Positions 1,143 to 53,571 of a stretch of DNA of 53,982 nt are shown here, piece by piece. The DNA comes from a virus: the IMG/VR virus record IMGVR_UViG_3300044766_000063, positions 1 to 53,982 of that record. One strand, given 5' to 3'. Positions within the stretch are counted from its first letter, which is position 1; each line of letters begins with the position of its first letter. A model generated the notes under the pieces. That model ran no database searches and was not told where the DNA came from. It saw only the letters and a list, made by a program, of their open reading frames with translations. A program made the position numbers and the translations under genes.

Positions 1143-2135
1143 ATGGCTGGTCAAGTCTGGGCAGTAAACAGTCTGGGCGGATATATGTATTCCCGCCAAC
1201 TGTCAAACGTCCTTCGCATGGCTGTGCAACCGCTCGTAAAATTCCGTCAGTTTTCGGATGTACGCGATGCTTCGCAGCAAGGTAAAAAGAAGGGCGACAT
1301 TTTCACATGGGACGTATTCTCTGATGTTGCCAATCCGGGCGGCGTGTTGACTGAAACCAACACCATGCCGGAAACAAACTTCACGATTGTTCAGGGTACT
1401 CTGACAATCACTGAAGCTGGCAACAGCGTTCCTTACTCGGGCAAGCTGGACAACCTGTCCAAGTTCCCGGTAATGGAATTGATCCAGAAGGTTCTGAAAA
1501 ACGATGCAGTCAAAACGTTCGACAGACTGGCATGGACGCAATTCAACCAAACGCTGCTGCGCGTAATTCCGACAGCAGGCACTGCAACTGATGCCGTCAC
1601 GCTGTACACCAATGGCACCGTCACAGGCACCAATACCATTGCGTATAACAACGCACACGCCAAAGCAATCGTGGACACAATGAAGGAACGTAACATCCCC
1701 GCTTATCTGGGTGATGACTACTATGCTCTTTCGTGGCCCACCACTCTGCGCGCGTTCAAAAACAATCTGGAAACGATCCACCAGTATTCGGATACGGGTT
1801 TCAAGTTGATCATGAACGGTGAAATTGGCCGTTACGAGAACGTGCGCTACGTTGAGCAAACCAACATTGCCAAAGGTATCGGTACGACCGGCATTGCAAC
1901 TGGCTCAACAGGTGGTGATATGACCGCATGGAGTCAAGGGAAGTCTGACTGGATTTTCTTCTTCGGCAACGACACGGTAGCAGAAGCTATCGCCGTGCCG
2001 GAAGAAATGAGAGGAAAAATTCCTTCTGATTACGGTCGTTCAAAGGGTGTCGCCTGGTACTACTTGGGCGGCTTCGGAATCGTTCACACGCTGGCTGCAA
2101 ACTGCCGGATTGTGAAATGGGACAGCCTCGTTTAA
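1143..2135 (+). CDS. Major capsid protein
   Basis: This 330-residue protein is the probable major coat subunit that forms the icosahedral head. It follows the scaffold gene with a strong AAGGAGAG ribosome site. The N-terminal arm (MAGQVWAVNSLGGYMYSRQL), the long helix with RQFSDVRDASQQGKKKG, and the later beta-rich part with EEMRGKIPSDYGRSKG fit HK97-fold coat proteins of podovirus-type phages. The neighbours (scaffold before, decoration-like protein after) support this. I could not align it to a named family, so fold assignment is inference. Confidence 0.8.
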   Translation: MAGQVWAVNSLGGYMYSRQLSNVLRMAVQPLVKFRQFSDVRDASQQGKKKGDIFTWDVFSDVANPGGVLTETNTMPETNFTIVQGTLTITEAGNSVPYSGKLDNLSKFPVMELIQKVLKNDAVKTFDRLAWTQFNQTLLRVIPTAGTATDAVTLYTNGTVTGTNTIAYNNAHAKAIVDTMKERNIPAYLGDDYYALSWPTTLRAFKNNLETIHQYSDTGFKLIMNGEIGRYENVRYVEQTNIAKGIGTTGIATGSTGGDMTAWSQGKSDWIFFFGNDTVAEAIAVPEEMRGKIPSDYGRSKGVAWYYLGGFGIVHTLAANCRIVKWDSLV

Positions 2136-3039: not shown

Positions 3040-3070
3040 GCACGGCCTCTAAGCGGGGCCGTGCTTTTTT
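3040..3070 (+). terminator. Rho-independent terminator after the head gene cluster
   Basis: A perfect 8-bp stem GCACGGCC/GGCCGTGC with a 9-base loop is followed by six T residues. It ends or attenuates the coat transcript just before the structured leader at 3073-3150. Confidence 0.85.
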
Positions 3071-3072
3071 CT

Positions 3073-3150
3073 GCATCAAGACGCATGAAGGTTTTTGGAT
3101 TGGATGCCGCACATCCATTACCTCGCGGGAACCTTCAGCCGTGTTGGTGT
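3073..3150 (+). ncRNA. Structured leader RNA, type-1 module (copy 1)
   Basis: The outer helix pairs GCATCAAGACG (3073-3083) with CGTGTTGGTGT (3140-3150): ten of eleven pairs form, with a single G-G mismatch. After an internal loop CAT/AGC, a second helix GAAGGTT (3087-3093) / AACCTTC (3130-3136) encloses a further small hairpin GGATG/CATCC. The same outer helix, mismatch and loop return at 52855-52974 and 53115-53201 with different but still complementary inner helices, which argues for a conserved RNA. It lies between a terminator and the ribosome site of the gene at 3178. Confidence 0.6.
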
Positions 3151-3177
3151 ACCGCAGTTTAATTTAAGGAGTAAATC

Positions 3178-3600
3178 ATGAGCGGACTTCAAGAAAAGTT
3201 TCAAGTCATTCTTCCGCCAGCACCAAATGAAGATGACGGTACGGAATGGAAAACATTCGAGTCGCAACGTCAGACAGGCGAGGCTGGACAGGCTCACGTA
3301 AACAATCAGTTTGCAGATGAAGAGGTGGACGGGAAATTCAATCTTCCACCTCCCGGTATGGATATTAATGATCAAGCCCGTTTTAATCCGAACAATTTGC
3401 CATTGTCGATGGCGGGCAGTTCGGATGCCTCAGCCGATACCAATCCGCAGGCTTTTGATCAAGGTTTCACTCGTCGTGCAATGAGTGGCACTGATGATCA
3501 ATACACAGGTGAACACGTTGATCATTTCTACGGTGAAGTGGTGGATGAGGATGGGAAAACGGGATTTGTTGAAAGAAATAATTATTTAGACCGACTTTAA
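3178..3600 (+). CDS. Conserved small head-region protein with PPGMDINDQ motif (copy 2)
   Basis: This 140-residue acidic protein carries KFNLPPPGMDINDQ at about residues 54-67, shared with the preceding gene. The N-terminal SGLQEKFQVILPPAPNEDDG and the Asp/Gly-rich C-terminus suggest an extended, poorly structured protein. A strong TAAGGAG site lies upstream, itself preceded by the structured leader at 3073-3150, so its translation or transcription may be regulated by that RNA. Function unknown. Confidence 0.55.
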   Translation: MSGLQEKFQVILPPAPNEDDGTEWKTFESQRQTGEAGQAHVNNQFADEEVDGKFNLPPPGMDINDQARFNPNNLPLSMAGSSDASADTNPQAFDQGFTRRAMSGTDDQYTGEHVDHFYGEVVDEDGKTGFVERNNYLDRL

Positions 3601-28358: not shown

Positions 28359-29975
28359 TCATTTCAACGCTATATAAAGGCTCTGTGGTTGAAGATAATG
28401 TGCGCATCCTGCCCCCGCAACCAAATTAATCTTCAGGGCAATATGTAGCCCTGAACTCGGGACTTCTGCGGTCAAAAAGCCGTCTGTTGGCCGCAGAACC
28501 ACTTCCCCTACCAGTTGGCGTAGAGCTTCCCTAGCAATCTCAATATGTTCAGTATTCCCTAGTGAAGACACCAAATCTTCATACATTTCACGGGCACGCG
28601 GGATCAATTCGGTTGGCTGGTAACGCTCAAACTCCTTTAGTTCGCCTTGGACATCCTTTAGCTTTTGTTCGCTATCTCGCAATGCAGCTTTTACCGATGG
28701 AGAGTCAATCCCGCCCATGATTGCTTTAATCAGGTTATCTATTTCCTTTTGGGTGTCGGCAATTTTCTTTTTGATAAGCGATGCATCAGGTGCGCCAGAC
28801 TTTAAAGAGGCGCGCACATTCTTTTCAAAATCAAGGTATGCTTCTTCAGATAGAAGTTCTCTTTTAATGCCTGTCAGCAATTCTCCTTCGACTGTTGATC
28901 GTTTGATCTGTAGGTTGTTACTGCAAACACTATTACCGCGATCTTTATGAAACGCGCACCCATATTTTGTCTTGTTTACCATGGTGTAATTTGCGCCACA
29001 TACGCCGCACTTTAAAAGCCCGCTGAATAAGTATTTGGACGGCGCACTACTGCTGCATCCCTTTCCATTTGCAGAGCCTTTACCGTTTTTTCTATTCTCA
29101 TCTGCGATGGCTTTTTTTGCCCGGATACGTTTGTCACATTTAATCCATGTCTCATCGTCAATAATGCGCAGTTCCGGCAAATTAACTGTTTTCCATTCCT
29201 CCTTTGGTCGCATGGTACGTAAACGTTTCCCGGTAGTCGGGTCTTTGACCCACTTTGTTTTATCGAACATCGGACTACCGATATAAGTTGAATTGCACAA
29301 CATGCCAACTTCTTTGGCGCTGGGATGAATTGAAGAGGGAGACCACGTACCGCCTGCTGGGCCTTTTACGCCTTTTTCATTTAATTCGGTAGCGATCTGG
29401 CGTGCTGCCGCGCCTTCTGAATAACGCTTGAAAATATACCGTATCCACTGAGCCTGTTCATTATTGATAGCAAGTTTAGAACCGTTGCCATCAGGAATTA
29501 AGTTATAACCATACGGTTTAGCGCCAGCGGAATATCCTTTTAAAAATTGCCCTTCAAGACCGCGATGTGTTTTTTTGGCGAGGTCATCCAGATATAATTC
29601 ACCCATCAAGCCACGAAGACTTGTTTCGATTTTAGAGTTATCTCTTGCGGTATCAATTCCATCTGAAACACCAATTATTCTGATACCAAGAAACTTAAAT
29701 TGTCGGATGGTAGTTAGGTTTCCTATATTGTCGCGTGACAAACGATCCAAGTCATCTACCAGTAAAATATCAAATGACTTAGCATTGGCGGCAGCTAACA
29801 TTTCCAGATACCCAGGACGATCATTGCGCGATCCGCTGATAGCCTGATCTTTATAAGCGATAGGCATTGGGAGATTATTGCGAGTGCAATAATTTTGAAT
29901 ATTGCGCAACTGGTCTTCAATTGAAGCCTCGCGCTGCATATCAGATGAGTAACGAAGGTAACAAGCGGTTCTCAT
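28359..29975 (-). CDS. Large serine integrase
   Basis: This 538-residue protein is a large serine recombinase. The catalytic domain starts MRTACYLRYSSDMQREASIE with the nucleophile among Ser10/Ser11, followed by VDDLDRLSRDNIGNL and the E-helix region. The recombinase domain runs about 150-260 (GYSAGAKPYGYNLIPDGNG). A zinc ribbon follows (LLKCGVCGANYTMVNKTKYG with later CAFHKDRG, VCSNN), then a coiled coil (TQKEIDNLIKAIMGG). It integrates the phage between attP and attB without host factors. ATGA overlap with the small gene upstream. Confidence 0.9.
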   Translation of the reverse strand: MRTACYLRYSSDMQREASIEDQLRNIQNYCTRNNLPMPIAYKDQAISGSRNDRPGYLEMLAAANAKSFDILLVDDLDRLSRDNIGNLTTIRQFKFLGIRIIGVSDGIDTARDNSKIETSLRGLMGELYLDDLAKKTHRGLEGQFLKGYSAGAKPYGYNLIPDGNGSKLAINNEQAQWIRYIFKRYSEGAAARQIATELNEKGVKGPAGGTWSPSSIHPSAKEVGMLCNSTYIGSPMFDKTKWVKDPTTGKRLRTMRPKEEWKTVNLPELRIIDDETWIKCDKRIRAKKAIADENRKNGKGSANGKGCSSSAPSKYLFSGLLKCGVCGANYTMVNKTKYGCAFHKDRGNSVCSNNLQIKRSTVEGELLTGIKRELLSEEAYLDFEKNVRASLKSGAPDASLIKKKIADTQKEIDNLIKAIMGGIDSPSVKAALRDSEQKLKDVQGELKEFERYQPTELIPRAREMYEDLVSSLGNTEHIEIAREALRQLVGEVVLRPTDGFLTAEVPSSGLHIALKINLVAGAGCAHYLQPQSLYIALK

Positions 29976-44756: not shown

Positions 44757-44829
44757 ACGCCTTCTTTTTGGCGCGCGTGTGCGTCGATACGTTGACGGGC
44801 GCGAAGTCCCGAATTTCAGGAGTGACACC

Positions 44830-44907
44830 ATGGCAAAGCCAAAAGAAAAAGTACCAATGGGCAAAGGTAAGGGCAAGGGCAAAGGGCCGTTTGGCCCGAA
44901 GTGCTGA
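44830..44907 (+). CDS. 25-residue Lys/Gly-rich peptide
   Basis: ATG 44830 follows CAGGAGTGACACC. The product MAKPKEKVPMGKGKGKGKGP ends FGPKC. Its strong basic charge suggests nucleic-acid or membrane contact. Short, but the ribosome site is good. Confidence 0.5.
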   Translation: MAKPKEKVPMGKGKGKGKGPFGPKC

Positions 44908-44950
44908 ACACTACGCGCGTATCCAGCATACGCGCGTATAGGAGATAACG

Positions 44951-49502: not shown

Positions 49503-52409
49503 ATGAGACCTGAAGACATAGCGCGACTGATTAGAGAGGAGGCGAGGCGAGGCGCACAGCCTAAAGACCTGGGCATTGAAGGCGAAAAAGGGCAGCTACA
49601 ATCCAGCCCTTCAAAACCGGAAAAGCAAAATGAAATTGCTGATGCTGAGATTCCCCCCCCCTCAGCATCTCCCCATCCGCAACCTGAAATTTTTTCCGCC
49701 CAAAATTTTTCAGATCGTAAAGATTCGTCTCCTTACGCTGACACTCCAAAATTTTTCCGCCAATTTTTGGAGCCAGATAACGGTAGTCTAACCAAAGCCG
49801 TACCGTTACTTAACGCAACTCTGTGCCAGCAGTACGACTCATGCCTTGATGTGCCTTTCCTGGACATCTTCAAGTGGTGGGAAGAGAAGACCGACCGGTA
49901 CAAGAACCTGCCTCTCGTCAGAGCGTTGTGCATGTACGACAGGTTCTTCTTGCTCGTTCAGATGTTCGGTCGTCAGGACATGCTTCATGAATGGCTTTAT
50001 GAGCGTTGTAGGGAAGTGGAGAGAGAGCCGGATAACTGTCTCGATCTGTGGAGTCGATTTCACTATAAAGCGGTGGACTTGCGTGAAGTTGTTCCGACTC
50101 CTTCTGGATGGAAGCGTCATGGAGATTTAGAGCCGGAAGATTATGTTTTTGGCCCGGACGGAAAACCGAAGAAAGTTCTTGCTCGGACAGAAGTGTTTAC
50201 GGATGCTGATTGTTGGGTTGTGAAGTTTGATAAAGGGTATGAAGTTGTCGTTTCAGCCGAACATCTTTGGACGGTGGACATCGCTTCAAAGGTAAGAGTT
50301 GGTGATGGTCGTGAAGGCAGGAAGACTGTAACGATCAACACCAGAGAACTTGCTGCTGAAGTCGCTCATTCCAAAGCAGTTGAGAGCAGAGTCTTACCTT
50401 CCGTTCCGGTAGCGAAAGCACTTGAGTATTCCGCATCAAGTCTTCCTGTCCCTCCCTATGTGTTGGGTGTGTGGTTGGGGGATGGAAATAAGGCTGACGG
50501 ACGTATCTCGAAAGATTTTCAGGATGAAATCATCTTGGAGAAAATCCGCGCCTGTGGTTTTGCAGTTGAACGTAAAGCTGGATTGAGCGTACAAATCTTC
50601 GGCCTTCTGCCGAAGTTGAAGACGTTGGGAGTCTGGAATGATAAGCACGTTCCAGTGAGTTATCTCACTGCCTCAATTGCGGATCGCTGGGAGCTTTTGA
50701 GTGGTTTGATGGATACAGATGGTCACTGTGATATTCGCGGTACAGCGACTTTCGTAAACAAGAGCGCAGCTCTCGCTGGGAATGTTTTTGAACTGGCCGT
50801 ATCGTTAGGTTTAAAACCTTCGCTACGGCATGTGGATGGAACTTACAACGACCAACCTTATCCGTATTATCAGGTCTCTCTTCAGTCCAGACATGATAAG
50901 CAAGTCTTCAGTCTTCCCAGAAAACAGGAACGCTCTACCGATGGGAAGGTGACTCGCTCTGGTCGTCATGCAATAGTCTCTGTAGAACCGGCTGATACGA
51001 TTCCTGTGTCTTGTATTCAAGTGGAAGGTGGAGAGTACCTGATCGGGGAACACTGCATCCCGACTCACAACTCCACCATCATTACTTACGCTGGGGTAAT
51101 TCAGGAGATTTTGAAAGACCCGGAGCTGACGGTTGGAATCTTTAGCCATGTGAAACCCATCGCTAAAGGTTTCTTGAGCCAGATCAAGCGGGAGCTTGAG
51201 TCTAATGAGCAGTTGAAGAAGCTGTTCCCTGATGTTCTATACGACAATCCTGAACGTCAGAGTCCGTCATGGTCGGTGGATAACGGGCTGATCGTGAAGA
51301 GACGGGGTAACCCGAAAGAACCTACGATTTCGGCCTGGGGTCTTGTTGACGGTCAACCTGTCTCAGCTCACTACAGACTGAGAGTCTATGATGACGTGGT
51401 GACTCAGGCATCTGTCTCGACTCCCGAGCAGGTCTCGAAAACGACTGAGGCGTTTGAACAATCCGCGAACTTGGGAACTGAGGACGGTCGGCGTTGGATG
51501 GTGGGTACGCGGTGGTCTTATGCGGATACTTACGCCGAGATCATGAAGAAGAAGATGGTGAAAGTCCGTCTTTATCCTGCCACGGACGATGGGACGTTTA
51601 CCGGGAACCCGGTATTGTGGTCGCCCGAGTTTAACGAGCAGATGAAACTTGAACAGGGAGAGGCGACTTATGCAACGCAATGTCTTCAGAACCCACTTGC
51701 AGGCAACCAGAAGATGTTCGATGTGGCCGATCTTCAGACTTACGAAGTCAGACCTGAAACGCTTGCAGTTTACATCCTCATTGACCCGGCGAGATCGAAA
51801 AAGACGGATTCTGACAACACGGCTATGGTTGTTGTGGGTCTGGACTACGCAGCGAACAAATACATCCTTGATGGGTTTAACCACAAGATGGACTTGCAAG
51901 AACGCTGGCAAAATACAGCCCGTCTCTATGAACGATGGAAACGAGCTACAGGGGTACAAGCTTTATATGTCGGATACGAAAGTTTCGCTGCGCAAGCCGA
52001 CTTGGACTATTTCCACGAACAGCAGAACCTGACGAAGATTCACTTCAACATAGTTGAGTTGGCTTGGCCCCGAGAAGGAGGTGGTTCAAAGATGGATCGT
52101 GTACAAAGACTTGGCCCGGATATGCGAAGTCACAAAATCTTCCTGCCTTATCCAACCGACGAAAAAAACCTGACTGCGGGTCAGAGAAAAATGACCCAGG
52201 GTTATGACTACCGTATTGCTCACAAGATCAAACGGAAAGATGAGAACAATGAGGCTTACGATTTGGCAGAACAACTCAAAGAACAGATATTTTATTTTCC
52301 ATTTGGAGGGAAGAAGGATTTGGTGGATGCGCTCTCCCGGATTTATGACATGGAACCCAGGGCACCAAGTTATCGTGAGCAGCGTTATTCAGAACCGGAG
52401 TTTGTATGA
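49503..52409 (+). CDS. Terminase large subunit precursor containing an intein
   Basis: 968 residues; 634 after removal of the 334-residue intein. The N-terminal ~80 residues are variable and Pro-rich. The ATPase starts near DVPFLDIFKWWEEKTDRYKN. The Walker A motif, HYK plus STIITYAGVIQ, is split by the intein between Lys189 and Ser. Walker B is LRVYDDVV. The RNase-H-like nuclease follows (AVYILIDPARSKKTDSDNTA and FVDALSRIYD-type end). It packages DNA into the head. Without intein splicing the ATPase site cannot form. Confidence 0.9.
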   Translation: MRPEDIARLIREEARRGAQPKDLGIEGEKGQLQSSPSKPEKQNEIADAEIPPPSASPHPQPEIFSAQNFSDRKDSSPYADTPKFFRQFLEPDNGSLTKAVPLLNATLCQQYDSCLDVPFLDIFKWWEEKTDRYKNLPLVRALCMYDRFFLLVQMFGRQDMLHEWLYERCREVEREPDNCLDLWSRFHYKAVDLREVVPTPSGWKRHGDLEPEDYVFGPDGKPKKVLARTEVFTDADCWVVKFDKGYEVVVSAEHLWTVDIASKVRVGDGREGRKTVTINTRELAAEVAHSKAVESRVLPSVPVAKALEYSASSLPVPPYVLGVWLGDGNKADGRISKDFQDEIILEKIRACGFAVERKAGLSVQIFGLLPKLKTLGVWNDKHVPVSYLTASIADRWELLSGLMDTDGHCDIRGTATFVNKSAALAGNVFELAVSLGLKPSLRHVDGTYNDQPYPYYQVSLQSRHDKQVFSLPRKQERSTDGKVTRSGRHAIVSVEPADTIPVSCIQVEGGEYLIGEHCIPTHNSTIITYAGVIQEILKDPELTVGIFSHVKPIAKGFLSQIKRELESNEQLKKLFPDVLYDNPERQSPSWSVDNGLIVKRRGNPKEPTISAWGLVDGQPVSAHYRLRVYDDVVTQASVSTPEQVSKTTEAFEQSANLGTEDGRRWMVGTRWSYADTYAEIMKKKMVKVRLYPATDDGTFTGNPVLWSPEFNEQMKLEQGEATYATQCLQNPLAGNQKMFDVADLQTYEVRPETLAVYILIDPARSKKTDSDNTAMVVVGLDYAANKYILDGFNHKMDLQERWQNTARLYERWKRATGVQALYVGYESFAAQADLDYFHEQQNLTKIHFNIVELAWPREGGGSKMDRVQRLGPDMRSHKIFLPYPTDEKNLTAGQRKMTQGYDYRIAHKIKRKDENNEAYDLAEQLKEQIFYFPFGGKKDLVDALSRIYDMEPRAPSYREQRYSEPEFV
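50070..51071 (+). other. Class 3 intein with LAGLIDADG homing endonuclease
   Basis: 334 residues between Lys189 and Ser of TerL. It begins with Ala (AVDLREVVPTPSGWKRHGDL), not Cys or Ser. It has the class 3 triad: Trp in block B (SAEHLWTV), Cys in block F (PVSCIQVEGGEYLI) and Thr before the terminal HN (CIPTHN), followed by Ser as extein +1. The endonuclease motifs YVLGVWLGDGNKADG and LLSGLMDTDGHCD are intact. Splicing would restore HYKSTIITYAG. Confidence 0.9.
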
Positions 52410-52583: not shown

Positions 52584-52805
52584 ATGAACGTAATCCTGCA
52601 CGGTGAAGGCAAGGAAATCAGAATGCACCGCACAGATATAGACCAGGTTCAGCACAAGCTCGTTGTCCCAACCAAGGTCTTCTCAAGAAAAAACAAGTGG
52701 GCTGATCCGGTCGGTGTTGATCGGAACTTAACTTATAAGTTCGCTTGCCAGATCGGTGATTATTACCACTATCAATTGAGCCACGTCACAAGCAAACAAT
52801 CATAG
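52584..52805 (+). CDS. Small beta-rich protein, 73 residues
   Basis: ATG 52584 gives MNVILHGEGKEIRMHRTDID, then VQHKLVVPTKVFSRKNKWAD. One base after the previous stop. It is followed by the long RNA-like region. Function unknown. Confidence 0.5.
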   Translation: MNVILHGEGKEIRMHRTDIDQVQHKLVVPTKVFSRKNKWADPVGVDRNLTYKFACQIGDYYHYQLSHVTSKQS

Positions 52806-52854
52806 GGTACTTTCGGACTACTCTCGTTCACTGGACGTGGCAATAAATAGTAAC

Positions 52855-52974
52855 ACATCAAGACGCATGGCGATTAGCCGCAAGGCCAAACAGTAGGGCG
52901 GATACAACCCGGATGGTTTCGGCCATGGTGCGGGTGTCCTCGGAAAGCCGCTTAGTCGCCAGCCGTGTTGGTGT
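52855..52974 (+). ncRNA. Structured RNA, type-1 module (copy 2)
   Basis: Outer helix ACATCAAGACG (52855-52865) / CGTGTTGGTGT (52964-52974) with the same single G-G mismatch as at 3073. The internal loop CAT/AGC is identical. The inner helix is different, TGGCGA...TCGCCA, yet still pairs. Extra hairpins (ACCCGGATGG / CCATGGTGCGGGT area) fill the middle. Changed bases that keep pairing support an RNA. Confidence 0.6.
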
Positions 52975-53098
52975 AAATGGGCAGTAATGCGTATGCGCAG
53001 GCTGTTGCGCGCCGGGGGATTAAAGTTCCAGAAAAGTTTGCCAGACCCGGAAGCCAAAAATCAAAACTGGATTGGAGAGATCAGCACTTCACACCAAC
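52967..53098 (+). ncRNA. Structured RNA, type-2 module (copy 1)
   Basis: GTTGGTGT (52967-52974), the 3-prime strand of the type-1 helix, can instead pair with ACACCAAC (53091-53098). Before the latter stands GAGATCAGCAC (53077-53087). After the former comes AATGCGTATGCGCAGGCTG-like sequence. The same parts recur at 53194-53260. The shared strand makes type 1 and type 2 mutually exclusive folds. Confidence 0.5.
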
Positions 53099-53114
53099 AA
53101 CATAATCGTAAGTT

Positions 53115-53201
53115 GTACCAAGACGTATATCAGTTAGCTTTAGGGTAATACCACGCGCCGGTTAATATCCGGGGAGGTTAGCTGATATATCGTGTTGGTG
53201 T
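53115..53201 (+). ncRNA. Structured RNA, type-1 module (copy 3)
   Basis: Outer helix GTACCAAGACG (53115-53125) / CGTGTTGGTGT (53191-53201); a T-G pair of the other copies is here C-G, a compensating change, while the G-G mismatch stays. The inner helix ATATCAG/CTGATAT extends further with wobble pairs (TTAGC/GGTTAG). The middle holds CCGG-type hairpins. Confidence 0.6.
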
Positions 53202-53260
53202 AATGCGTAGGCTGAAAATAACATTTCGCAAACTTCTGAGATCAGCACAGAAACACCAAC
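53194..53260 (+). ncRNA. Structured RNA, type-2 module (copy 2)
   Basis: GTTGGTGT (53194-53201) pairs with ACACCAAC (53253-53260). It shares TAATGCGTAGGCTG-like and GAGATCAGCAC (53238-53248) sequence with copy 1 but is half as long. About 70 bases then lead to the ribosome site of the gene at 53329. Confidence 0.5.
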
Positions 53261-53328
53261 TTCAATTCGCAGGTGCAACTTAACACAAAGCCTGTAACCG
53301 CCCGCAAGGGTCTTTATAGGAGAGCAGC

Positions 53329-53571
53329 ATGAACGCAGTCGTTGCAAAGATGAATTGCCATTACATCCAGACGCAGGATTTTGGATACAACGCCCAGTAC
53401 CACAAAGTAATGTTGGGTGCCGTGTACGGCCAAGAAGGCGAGAACAAGGACTTTGCTGATGCAACGCCTTCCGGCGAGTGCTGGATGAATATTAATACAG
53501 GCCGTCCAGCGTTGGGATTTTTCAAGCCGAACAAAAAGTATTACGTCACTTTCACGGAGGCACCTGATTGA
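53329..53571 (+). CDS. Small protein downstream of the RNA modules
   Basis: 80 residues: MNAVVAKMNCHYIQTQDFGY, AQYHKVMLGAVYGQEGENKD, then SGECWMNINTGRPALGFFKP and a beta end. Strong TAGGAGAGCAGC ribosome site. The single beta domain resembles small phage virion or modulation proteins. Its expression may be set by the RNA modules. Family not recognised. Confidence 0.6.
   Translation: MNAVVAKMNCHYIQTQDFGYNAQYHKVMLGAVYGQEGENKDFADATPSGECWMNINTGRPALGFFKPNKKYYVTFTEAPD

Follow-up and report, generated by a model that had tools for sequence, protein, structure and literature searches.

Closest described systems

The stable RNAs C and D of phage T4 (species 1 and 2), which are of unknown function, are encoded in a tRNA cluster, and put of phage HK022, which lies near early promoters, consists of two simple hairpins. 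Transfer RNA, tmRNA, the lambda late leader (6S RNA and tR') and the integron attC site also bear likenesses to the locus analyzed here. The window, by which we mean the full 53,982-nt stretch of IMG/VR record IMGVR_UViG_3300044766_000063 (positions 1–53,982), carries hairpins of one type (T1) and a second type of domain (T2) whose 5' strand is also the 3' strand of the hairpin before it.

Like tRNA (RF00005), T2 combines an acceptor-like stem with D-like and T-like arms and a contact between D-loop and T-loop, and copies of it occur in or beside phage tRNA clusters. It differs in its long variable middle and usual lack of CCA, in going mostly unrecognized as tRNA, in the 9-nt T-like loop and 6-bp kissing helix of the class called class 0 below, and in the second pairing of its 5' strand, with a hairpin upstream. 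The tRNA-like ends and long inserted middle recall tmRNA, but T2 has a D-like stem and no Rfam tmRNA match at the gathering score; weak sub-threshold beta_tmRNA and permuted matches fell outside T2. HK022 put and the lambda late leader likewise place hairpins beside terminators in a phage leader, and a related unit of lambda lies just after tR'; the 6S RNA, however, ends at tR', before that unit. The T1 hairpin is imperfect, its outer and inner boxes separated by an unpaired spacer and its end variable, and it occurs in arrays of variable units, as attC does, but there is no IntI gene, the R' consensus is not followed, and covariation of RNA type is found between hairpins. The likeness of T2s to T4 RNAs C and D, as stable phage RNAs encoded in a tRNA cluster, is by description only and serves as a lead.

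T1 and T2 elements in the window

Matches to T1 were scored with R1, a covariance model derived from 77 T1 sequences with distinct interiors, the 3073 copy of the window among them. The elements and their neighbors are as follows.

1143..2135 (+), major head protein gene (phrog_1357, E 4e-17), context of T1-C
3040..3070 (+), intrinsic-terminator-like hairpin GCACGGCCTCTAAGCGGGGCCGTGC-TTTTTT, recognized from sequence, immediately 5' of T1-C
3073..3151 (+), T1-C hairpin, in the 5' leader of ORF 3178–3600 (R1 E 8.3e-13; fold z -4.40)
49503..52409 (+), terminase large subunit gene, upstream of T1-A (PHROG phrog_38, E 2e-49)
52855..52975 (+), T1-A hairpin, from R1 and folding (R1 E 6.1e-12; fold z -3.26): outer helix CATCAAGACG/CGTGTTGGTG with a G-G mismatch, CAT/AGC internal loop, inner helix GGCGATTA/TAGTCGCC and variable apex
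52967..53098 (+), T2-A tRNA-shaped domain: 5' strand 52967–52974 in common with T1-A, closing strand ACACCAAC at 53091–53098, tail AAC; exact 8-bp stem, with covariation in homologous domains
52995..53010 (+), T2-A D-like arm, GCGC-AGGCTGTT-GCGC
53074..53090 (+), T2-A T-like arm, GGAG-AGATCAGCA-CTTC, abutting the closing strand (inferred register)
53115..53202 (+), T1-B hairpin, divergent, CCAAGACGTATATCAG...CTGATATATCGTGTTGG (R1 E 0.0016; fold z -6.23)
53194..53260 (+), T2-B tRNA-shaped domain: 53194–53201 in common with T1-B, closing strand ACACCAAC at 53253–53260, from the exact 8-bp stem
53205..53229 (+), T2-B D-like arm, GCG...CGC
53234..53252 (+), T2-B T-like arm, TTCTG-AGATCAGCA-CAGAA, stacked on the closing stem (from sequence, probable register)
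53329..53571 (+), 80-aa ORF downstream of T2-B, with a GGAG ribosome site (phrog_6978, unknown function, E 2e-7)

A sequence-only reading of the window had described three type-1 modules sharing an outer helix with one G-G mismatch, and a U-G pair that becomes C-G; arms, mismatch and pair change were all found where it had placed them. Each of the three folds was better than every one of 200 shuffled sequences (0/200), and R1, which includes the 3073 copy, recovered all three. As that reading had also noted, every copy precedes late genes equipped with ribosome sites, GGAG before the ATG at 53329 and AAGGAG before the ATG at 3178. T1-C is a T1 alone, with no T2 domain, and some T1s elsewhere also lack one.

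The T1 3' strand GTTGGTGT is reused by both T2 domains of the window, forming with ACACCAAC the two exact 8-bp stems that had been predicted, and GAGATCAGCAC occurs in the window in two exact copies. Single-sequence folds of the type-2 stretches were no better than shuffles (z = -0.7 and -1.7), and the exact stems and repeated GAGATCAGCAC are weak taken alone, so the case for type 2 is made by the comparative evidence below. Beyond what had been noticed from the letters, the comparison brought out the tRNA shape of type 2, the interchangeability of the parts and an architecture shared with lambda and P1.

Elsewhere in the window, the terminase large subunit gene is of unusual length (968 aa); separate stretches of the product match several PHROG terminases, one of which is also DNA primase-like, and the gene is possibly a fusion or insertion product. 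A large serine integrase is encoded on the minus strand at 28359–29975 (phrog_95, E 5e-82), suggesting that the phage is probably temperate.

The T1 hairpin and its homologs

Searching IMG/VR for CAAGACG..CGTGTTGGTGTA returned 41 contigs, nearly all with the same hairpin, in which the interiors were different yet complementary. Three further patterns returned at least 120, 43 and at least 120 stretches. T1 was found by pattern in 284 collected loci (numbered with L below) and is present across hundreds of IMG/VR contigs; R1 matched the element in 41 of 43 long records, usually as one array per record. The T1 consensus consists of an outer helix YCAA[C/G]ACG/CGTGTTGG, an internal loop CA(U)/(A)GY, an inner helix with AUUG/CAGU and a variable apex. 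Because the gathering patterns fix ACGCAT and CGTGTTGG, the invariance of those two stretches is a selection effect; the covarying columns were left free.

In the 77-sequence set, whose interiors differ, pairing held in 96.3% of cells. Changes on both sides of a pair were seen in 69 cells against 16.5 in shuffles, and the covariation score was 0.272 against 0.153, a value reached by 0 of 500 shuffles, in controls that retain the relatedness among the sequences, whose interiors had been picked to be distinct. When the partner strand was slid by 1–3 columns the signal was gone. G-U pairs outnumbered A-C pairs by 271 to 8, which argues that the working strand is the RNA sense strand of the downstream gene; T1 lay on the strand of that gene in 207 of 264 cases. 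Covariation among homologs, one of the observations called for with the original description, was strong in both T1 helices and in the tertiary kissing helix described below.

Against 84,980 bacterial and archaeal genomes, the exact T1 patterns gave 0 and then 2 matches, one at the end of a Burkholderiales MAG contig and one on a Polynucleobacter contig whose first 8 kb are prophage-like. Going by these two matches, the hosts are probably freshwater Burkholderiales.

The T2 domain and its likeness to tRNA

An earlier test of T2 closure, which allowed any wobble pairing within 150 nt, was positive in 84% of units against 58% of shuffled ones; because of this high background it was replaced by an anchored test. 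YCAACA[ACG] was found within 220 nt after T1 in 198 of 273 cases, where 24 were expected, and in units that do not read GTTGGTG the next two T2 pairs still formed in 59% (10% when shuffled). An unanchored scan of the enteric units was likewise weak taken alone.

The general form of T2 is a 7–9 bp acceptor-like stem, a D-like arm, a variable middle and a T-like arm, with a kissing helix between the D-loop and the T-loop. In class 0 the D-like arm reads GCGC-AGGCTGAT-GCGC and the T-like arm, hard against the closing strand, reads GCCGG-AGATCAGCA-CCGGC, and the two loops are complementary (GCTGAT/ATCAGC). The four helices (acceptor, D arm, T arm and kissing helix) were 97.5% paired in 32 trimmed rows from which the variable middle had been removed (alignment A4). 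Double changes numbered 35 against 7.2 in shuffles and fell in the two arms and the kissing helix; variation in the acceptor part was one-sided only. The kissing helix itself was 95.3% paired and covarying: GTCGA/TCGAC replaces GCTGA/TCAGC in L438, and in other T2 classes AGC/GCU becomes GGC/GCC. This covariation was independent in two T2 groups (Fisher p 7e-5 and 2e-5). Together with the T arm abutting the acceptor, the covarying arms and complementary loops indicate that T2 is tRNA-shaped.

By their GGCTG and GAGATCAGCAC motifs the two window T2s appear to belong to class 0, with which BLAST did not cluster them. The T2-A T-like arm is the counterpart of the class-0 element AAGCCGG-AGATCAGCA-CCGGC, and the D-like arm and kissing helix of T2-A are backed through alignment A4. 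In a register set by eye, the T2-A D-like loop at 53001–53004 (GCTG) would pair with 53082–53085 (CAGC); in T2-B, GCTGA at 53211–53215 is complementary to TCAGC of the T-like loop at 53242–53246, a putative register with the kissing covariation of the class behind it.

A minority of T2s scored above the gathering threshold of RF00005, with 43–49 bits (L029 7569–7639, L037 1841–1911, L263 2791–2888). ARAGORN called no genes in the window, and most T2s received no tRNA call. The 3' tails read AAC in the freshwater units, and in the enteric units they start with CCA in 11 of 44 and with NCCA in 2 of 44, most being without an encoded CCA.

Several loci show individual peculiarities. A T2 class in L261 (1773–1848) and L249 has two T-arm-like hairpins, CGGTTTGATTCCG and GGTGGGTTCGACTCCCACC, and resembles a tRNA with a duplicated T arm. 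T2s in L255, L258, L261, L264 and L269 resemble tRNAs whose D-loop region carries a long insertion. At L266 1334–1408 and L252 4272–4346 a regular tRNA-Met gene ends immediately before the T1 hairpin.

One strand in two competing folds

GTTGG, or GTTGT in enterobacterial phages, is used twice, on the 3' side of the T1 outer helix and on the 5' side of the T2 acceptor. Because one strand serves both, the full T1 outer helix and the T2 acceptor exclude each other; the T1 inner helix could coexist with T2. The T1 positions opposite GTTGG keep pairing (C or U against G in 97–99%), and the T2 partners YCAAC are enriched and covarying. Two linker families, CGTGTTGGTG in freshwater units and CCGTTGTGGTG in enteric ones, both keep the common strand. 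Past GTTGG, the T1 helix showed no covariation with the T2 strand, whether T2 was present or absent.

Predicted energies of the T1 and T2 folds were -80.6 and -78.8 kcal/mol for the first window unit, -48.7 and -45.8 for the second and -49.9 and -49.3 for lambda, gaps of 1.8, 2.9 and 0.6 kcal/mol, in calculations that exclude co-transcriptional folding and pseudoknots; kissing helices, if counted, would favor T2. The two folds lay within 3 kcal/mol in 58% of 157 units, a figure to be read knowing that overlapping helices of like length tend toward like energy anyway. The median over the 157 units slightly favored T1, more so when C-G replaces the G-G mismatch, and the median over 41 enteric units favored T2.

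Sequence conservation and the near-equal predicted energies thus back the proposal that the two folds are mutually exclusive through a common strand. Of the wider claim that this is a new phage RNA class or switch, the class part held, given the covariation, the sense-strand G-U bias, the lack of an Rfam family and the hundreds of homologs; a two-fold switch is plausible on the modeled energies.

A proposed mechanism

We favor, at about even confidence and from sequence comparison, a reading in which the units are late-leader elements whose T1 would control formation of the T2 acceptor, either releasing tRNA-like RNAs or marking a processing site. The tRNA-like-RNA reading is favored because T2 has a tRNA frame, genuine tRNAs fill the same slots, and the common-strand design is kept with two hairpin sequences. 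The units would be transcribed as leader or spacer RNA of a late operon, and T1 would fold first, masking the T2 5' strand. As the T2 3' strand emerges, or when T1 is cut or unwound, the common strand would move to T2. The formed T2 would then present a tRNA-like elbow and a stack of acceptor and T arm that tRNA-processing enzymes could recognize, and it might be freed as a stable tRNA-like RNA, or its folding might mark a processing site on the late mRNA. A released RNA could act as a decoy for tRNA-directed host enzymes, as a sponge or in another role. Points that weigh against this reading are that no CCA is encoded in most T2s, that ARAGORN passes over most of them, that T1-C and some further T1s stand alone, and that the outer T1 helix past GTTGG does not covary with the T2 strand.

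Through the tRNA shape of T2 the units touch on two open puzzles, the presence of tRNA clusters in phage genomes and the stable phage RNAs that lack an explanation.

Modular exchange and turnover

The interiors fall into about 124 classes for T1 and about 103 for T2, which reassort freely; the commonest T1 class adjoins 15 T2 classes. To judge by these sequences, T1 and T2 interiors are swapped as independent modules. We know of no other case in which two sets of about a hundred RNA domains are exchanged freely around one strand. A domain GGTTCATGTGGTTGCCGCC..TTGCGCC..CCTCTGGTAATTCC (L184, L205, L238, L255 and L295) served as interior of T1 and of T2 alike, which suggests that some modules can occupy either slot.

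At the window 3073 site, relatives with 95–98% identical head proteins carry wholly different interiors, and in L051 the element is absent from the equivalent site. L047 has there a shrunken T1 copy, GGCATCATGCAGATCAACAGCCGTCATCCGTGTTGGTGCC, apparently a deletion derivative. Two identities that could have undone the RNA interpretation appear unlikely: coding sequence, as relatives with near-identical head proteins differ wholly in the interiors, and a transposon end, of which the single empty-site comparison (L051) gave no sign.

High class diversity within a constant tRNA-like frame, free reassortment, fast interior turnover at one locus among close relatives and the empty site of L051 would all suit small stable RNA decoys, in which T2s titrate host anticodon nucleases, synthetases or modification and defense enzymes and shuffling reflects an arms race. 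Most phages have a single array, however, and no defense partner was identified, and we regard this account as unlikely.

Reassortment of T1 and T2 classes, and a T1 anatomy (R box, spacer, L box, variable end) that resembles attC, could instead point to DNA-level cassettes, with T1 a folded single-strand recombination site and the T2s tiny cassettes. This is largely refuted and scarcely credible: an IntI-type integrase (TIGR02249) was found in 0 of 40 long records, the usual forms GTTGGTG and GTTGTGG depart from the R' consensus GTTRRRY, the G-U bias identifies the sense strand as the active one, and a cassette body would have no need of a covarying acceptor, D arm, T arm and kissing helix.

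The units might also be decayed or selfish tRNA remnants and spacer hairpins with no phage function, as some T2s are tRNA homologs, interiors vary widely and some copies are degenerate (L047). Yet compensatory changes in the helices, the tertiary one included, occur in both the Burkholderiales-type freshwater phages and the enterobacterial phages, which requires continuing selection, and we disfavor remnants as very improbable.

Lambda, P1 and the genomic context

The freshwater arrays had no match among 50,697 phage records. A two-arm probe for class 0 matched 208 phage records, including P1, P7, D6, HK629, CUS-3, PY54, Pseudomonas D3 and Burkholderia CSP3, and a longer class-0 probe matched 937 of 5426 E. 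coli genomes, many of the matches spanning part of the probe. Enterobacterial phages have a different hairpin before class 0, T1' (CAACAGGTAAGAGCATTG..CAGTGCTCTTTCCGTTGTGG), whose inner helix covaries and which carries the same AUUG/CAGU U-G pair (35 of 48 T1', compared with 64 of 77 T1). R1 does not detect enteric T1', and a common origin of T1 and T1' is suggested by the architecture and the common T2 class, with no link through a covariance model.

The lambda unit occupies 44785–44942, T1' beginning at 44785 and a T2 that falls in a different class spanning 44858–44942, closed by GTTGTGCTG/CAGCACAAC; it lies directly after tR' and before S, and 431 of 5426 E. coli genomes contain the stretch. 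In HK629 and CUS-3 the unit separates Q from the holin gene, and in P1, D3, KP591P1, HC6 and ST4 it is located within or beside tRNA clusters. The units of cultured phages either have no annotation or are covered by 'hypothetical protein' genes. At L415 2684–3420 (phage P1 ~69501–70238), at least three T1'/T2'-like units lie between tRNA-Thr and tciA, on the strand opposite plp and upl, whose gene calls overlap them.

Units of the family are commonly adjacent to terminase or lysis genes or placed among phage tRNA genes. Neighbors on either side in environmental contigs include terminase small and large subunits (Sf6-type TerS among them), HNH endonucleases, ParB-like proteins and DUF5856. A terminator-like hairpin stands directly before 10% of first T1s against 0.6% of random positions, as at window 3040–3070 and in lambda, and an intrinsic-terminator-like site lies directly upstream of 23 of 98 T1'. 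A promoter at the T1 start was considered and set aside, as enrichment of a -10 element there was modest (11% against 4.6%).

These positions bear on the main rival, a purely cis-acting late-leader element that works on the polymerase or the mRNA, with nothing released; it could take the form of factor-independent antitermination (as by HK022 put), mRNA protection or translation control of the next gene. The agreement of T1 with the downstream gene strand, the terminator-like sites before T1 and T1', the lambda site between tR' and S, the usual single array per genome and the ability of T1 to stand alone (window 3073–3151) are all as such an element would have them. It leaves unexplained why T2 is tRNA-shaped, why true tRNA homologs serve as T2 and why units sit in tRNA clusters at a distance from late genes (near ban in P1), and about 100 T2 classes would have to share one cis job. 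Rfam gave no match, and we know of no special match between T1/T2 units and put. We consider a purely cis-acting element somewhat unlikely.

Extended to cultured phages, the favored reading of released or exposed tRNA-like RNAs becomes a phage-wide modular system, lambda included, in which swappable hairpins and tRNA-shaped domains would be joined through one common strand into bistable units that release or expose tRNA-like RNAs during late gene expression; we advance this wider form tentatively, well short of even confidence. If true, it would add a large RNA class to the lambda late leader from tR' to S, among the best mapped of viral stretches, and would place the same class in hundreds of environmental phages. 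With the unit present in lambda and P1, its function is testable at once in laboratory E. coli.

Comparison with catalogued RNAs

Rfam 15 gave no matches, at gathering score or E <= 10, in the window or in 52780–53340, and none over T1'/T2' in nine annotated loci. The open-access literature contained no description that we could find; subscription journals and preprints were mostly outside this coverage, and an earlier mention is possible, especially of the lambda stretch or in catalogs of predicted viral RNAs. On the sequence comparison, T1 and T2 form a conserved modular phage RNA family, apparently undescribed, with no Rfam 15 match beyond ordinary tRNA.

Three small phage RNAs were considered and set aside. 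PreS of lambda lies elsewhere, between ea10 and ral (PMC12197685), and svsR, at the cI end, is unrelated (PMC12803456). P22E, a small RNA upstream of P22 gene 13 found where lysis-leader RNAs were sequenced (PMC13397905), has a different sequence, and counts against the reading that tRNA-like RNAs are released from late leaders.

On the other loci, Rfam matches above threshold were just tRNA and one abiF RNA (Rfam RF03085, 55.6 bits). The latter lies at L382 1719–1755, on a viral contig that also carries T1-T2 arrays.
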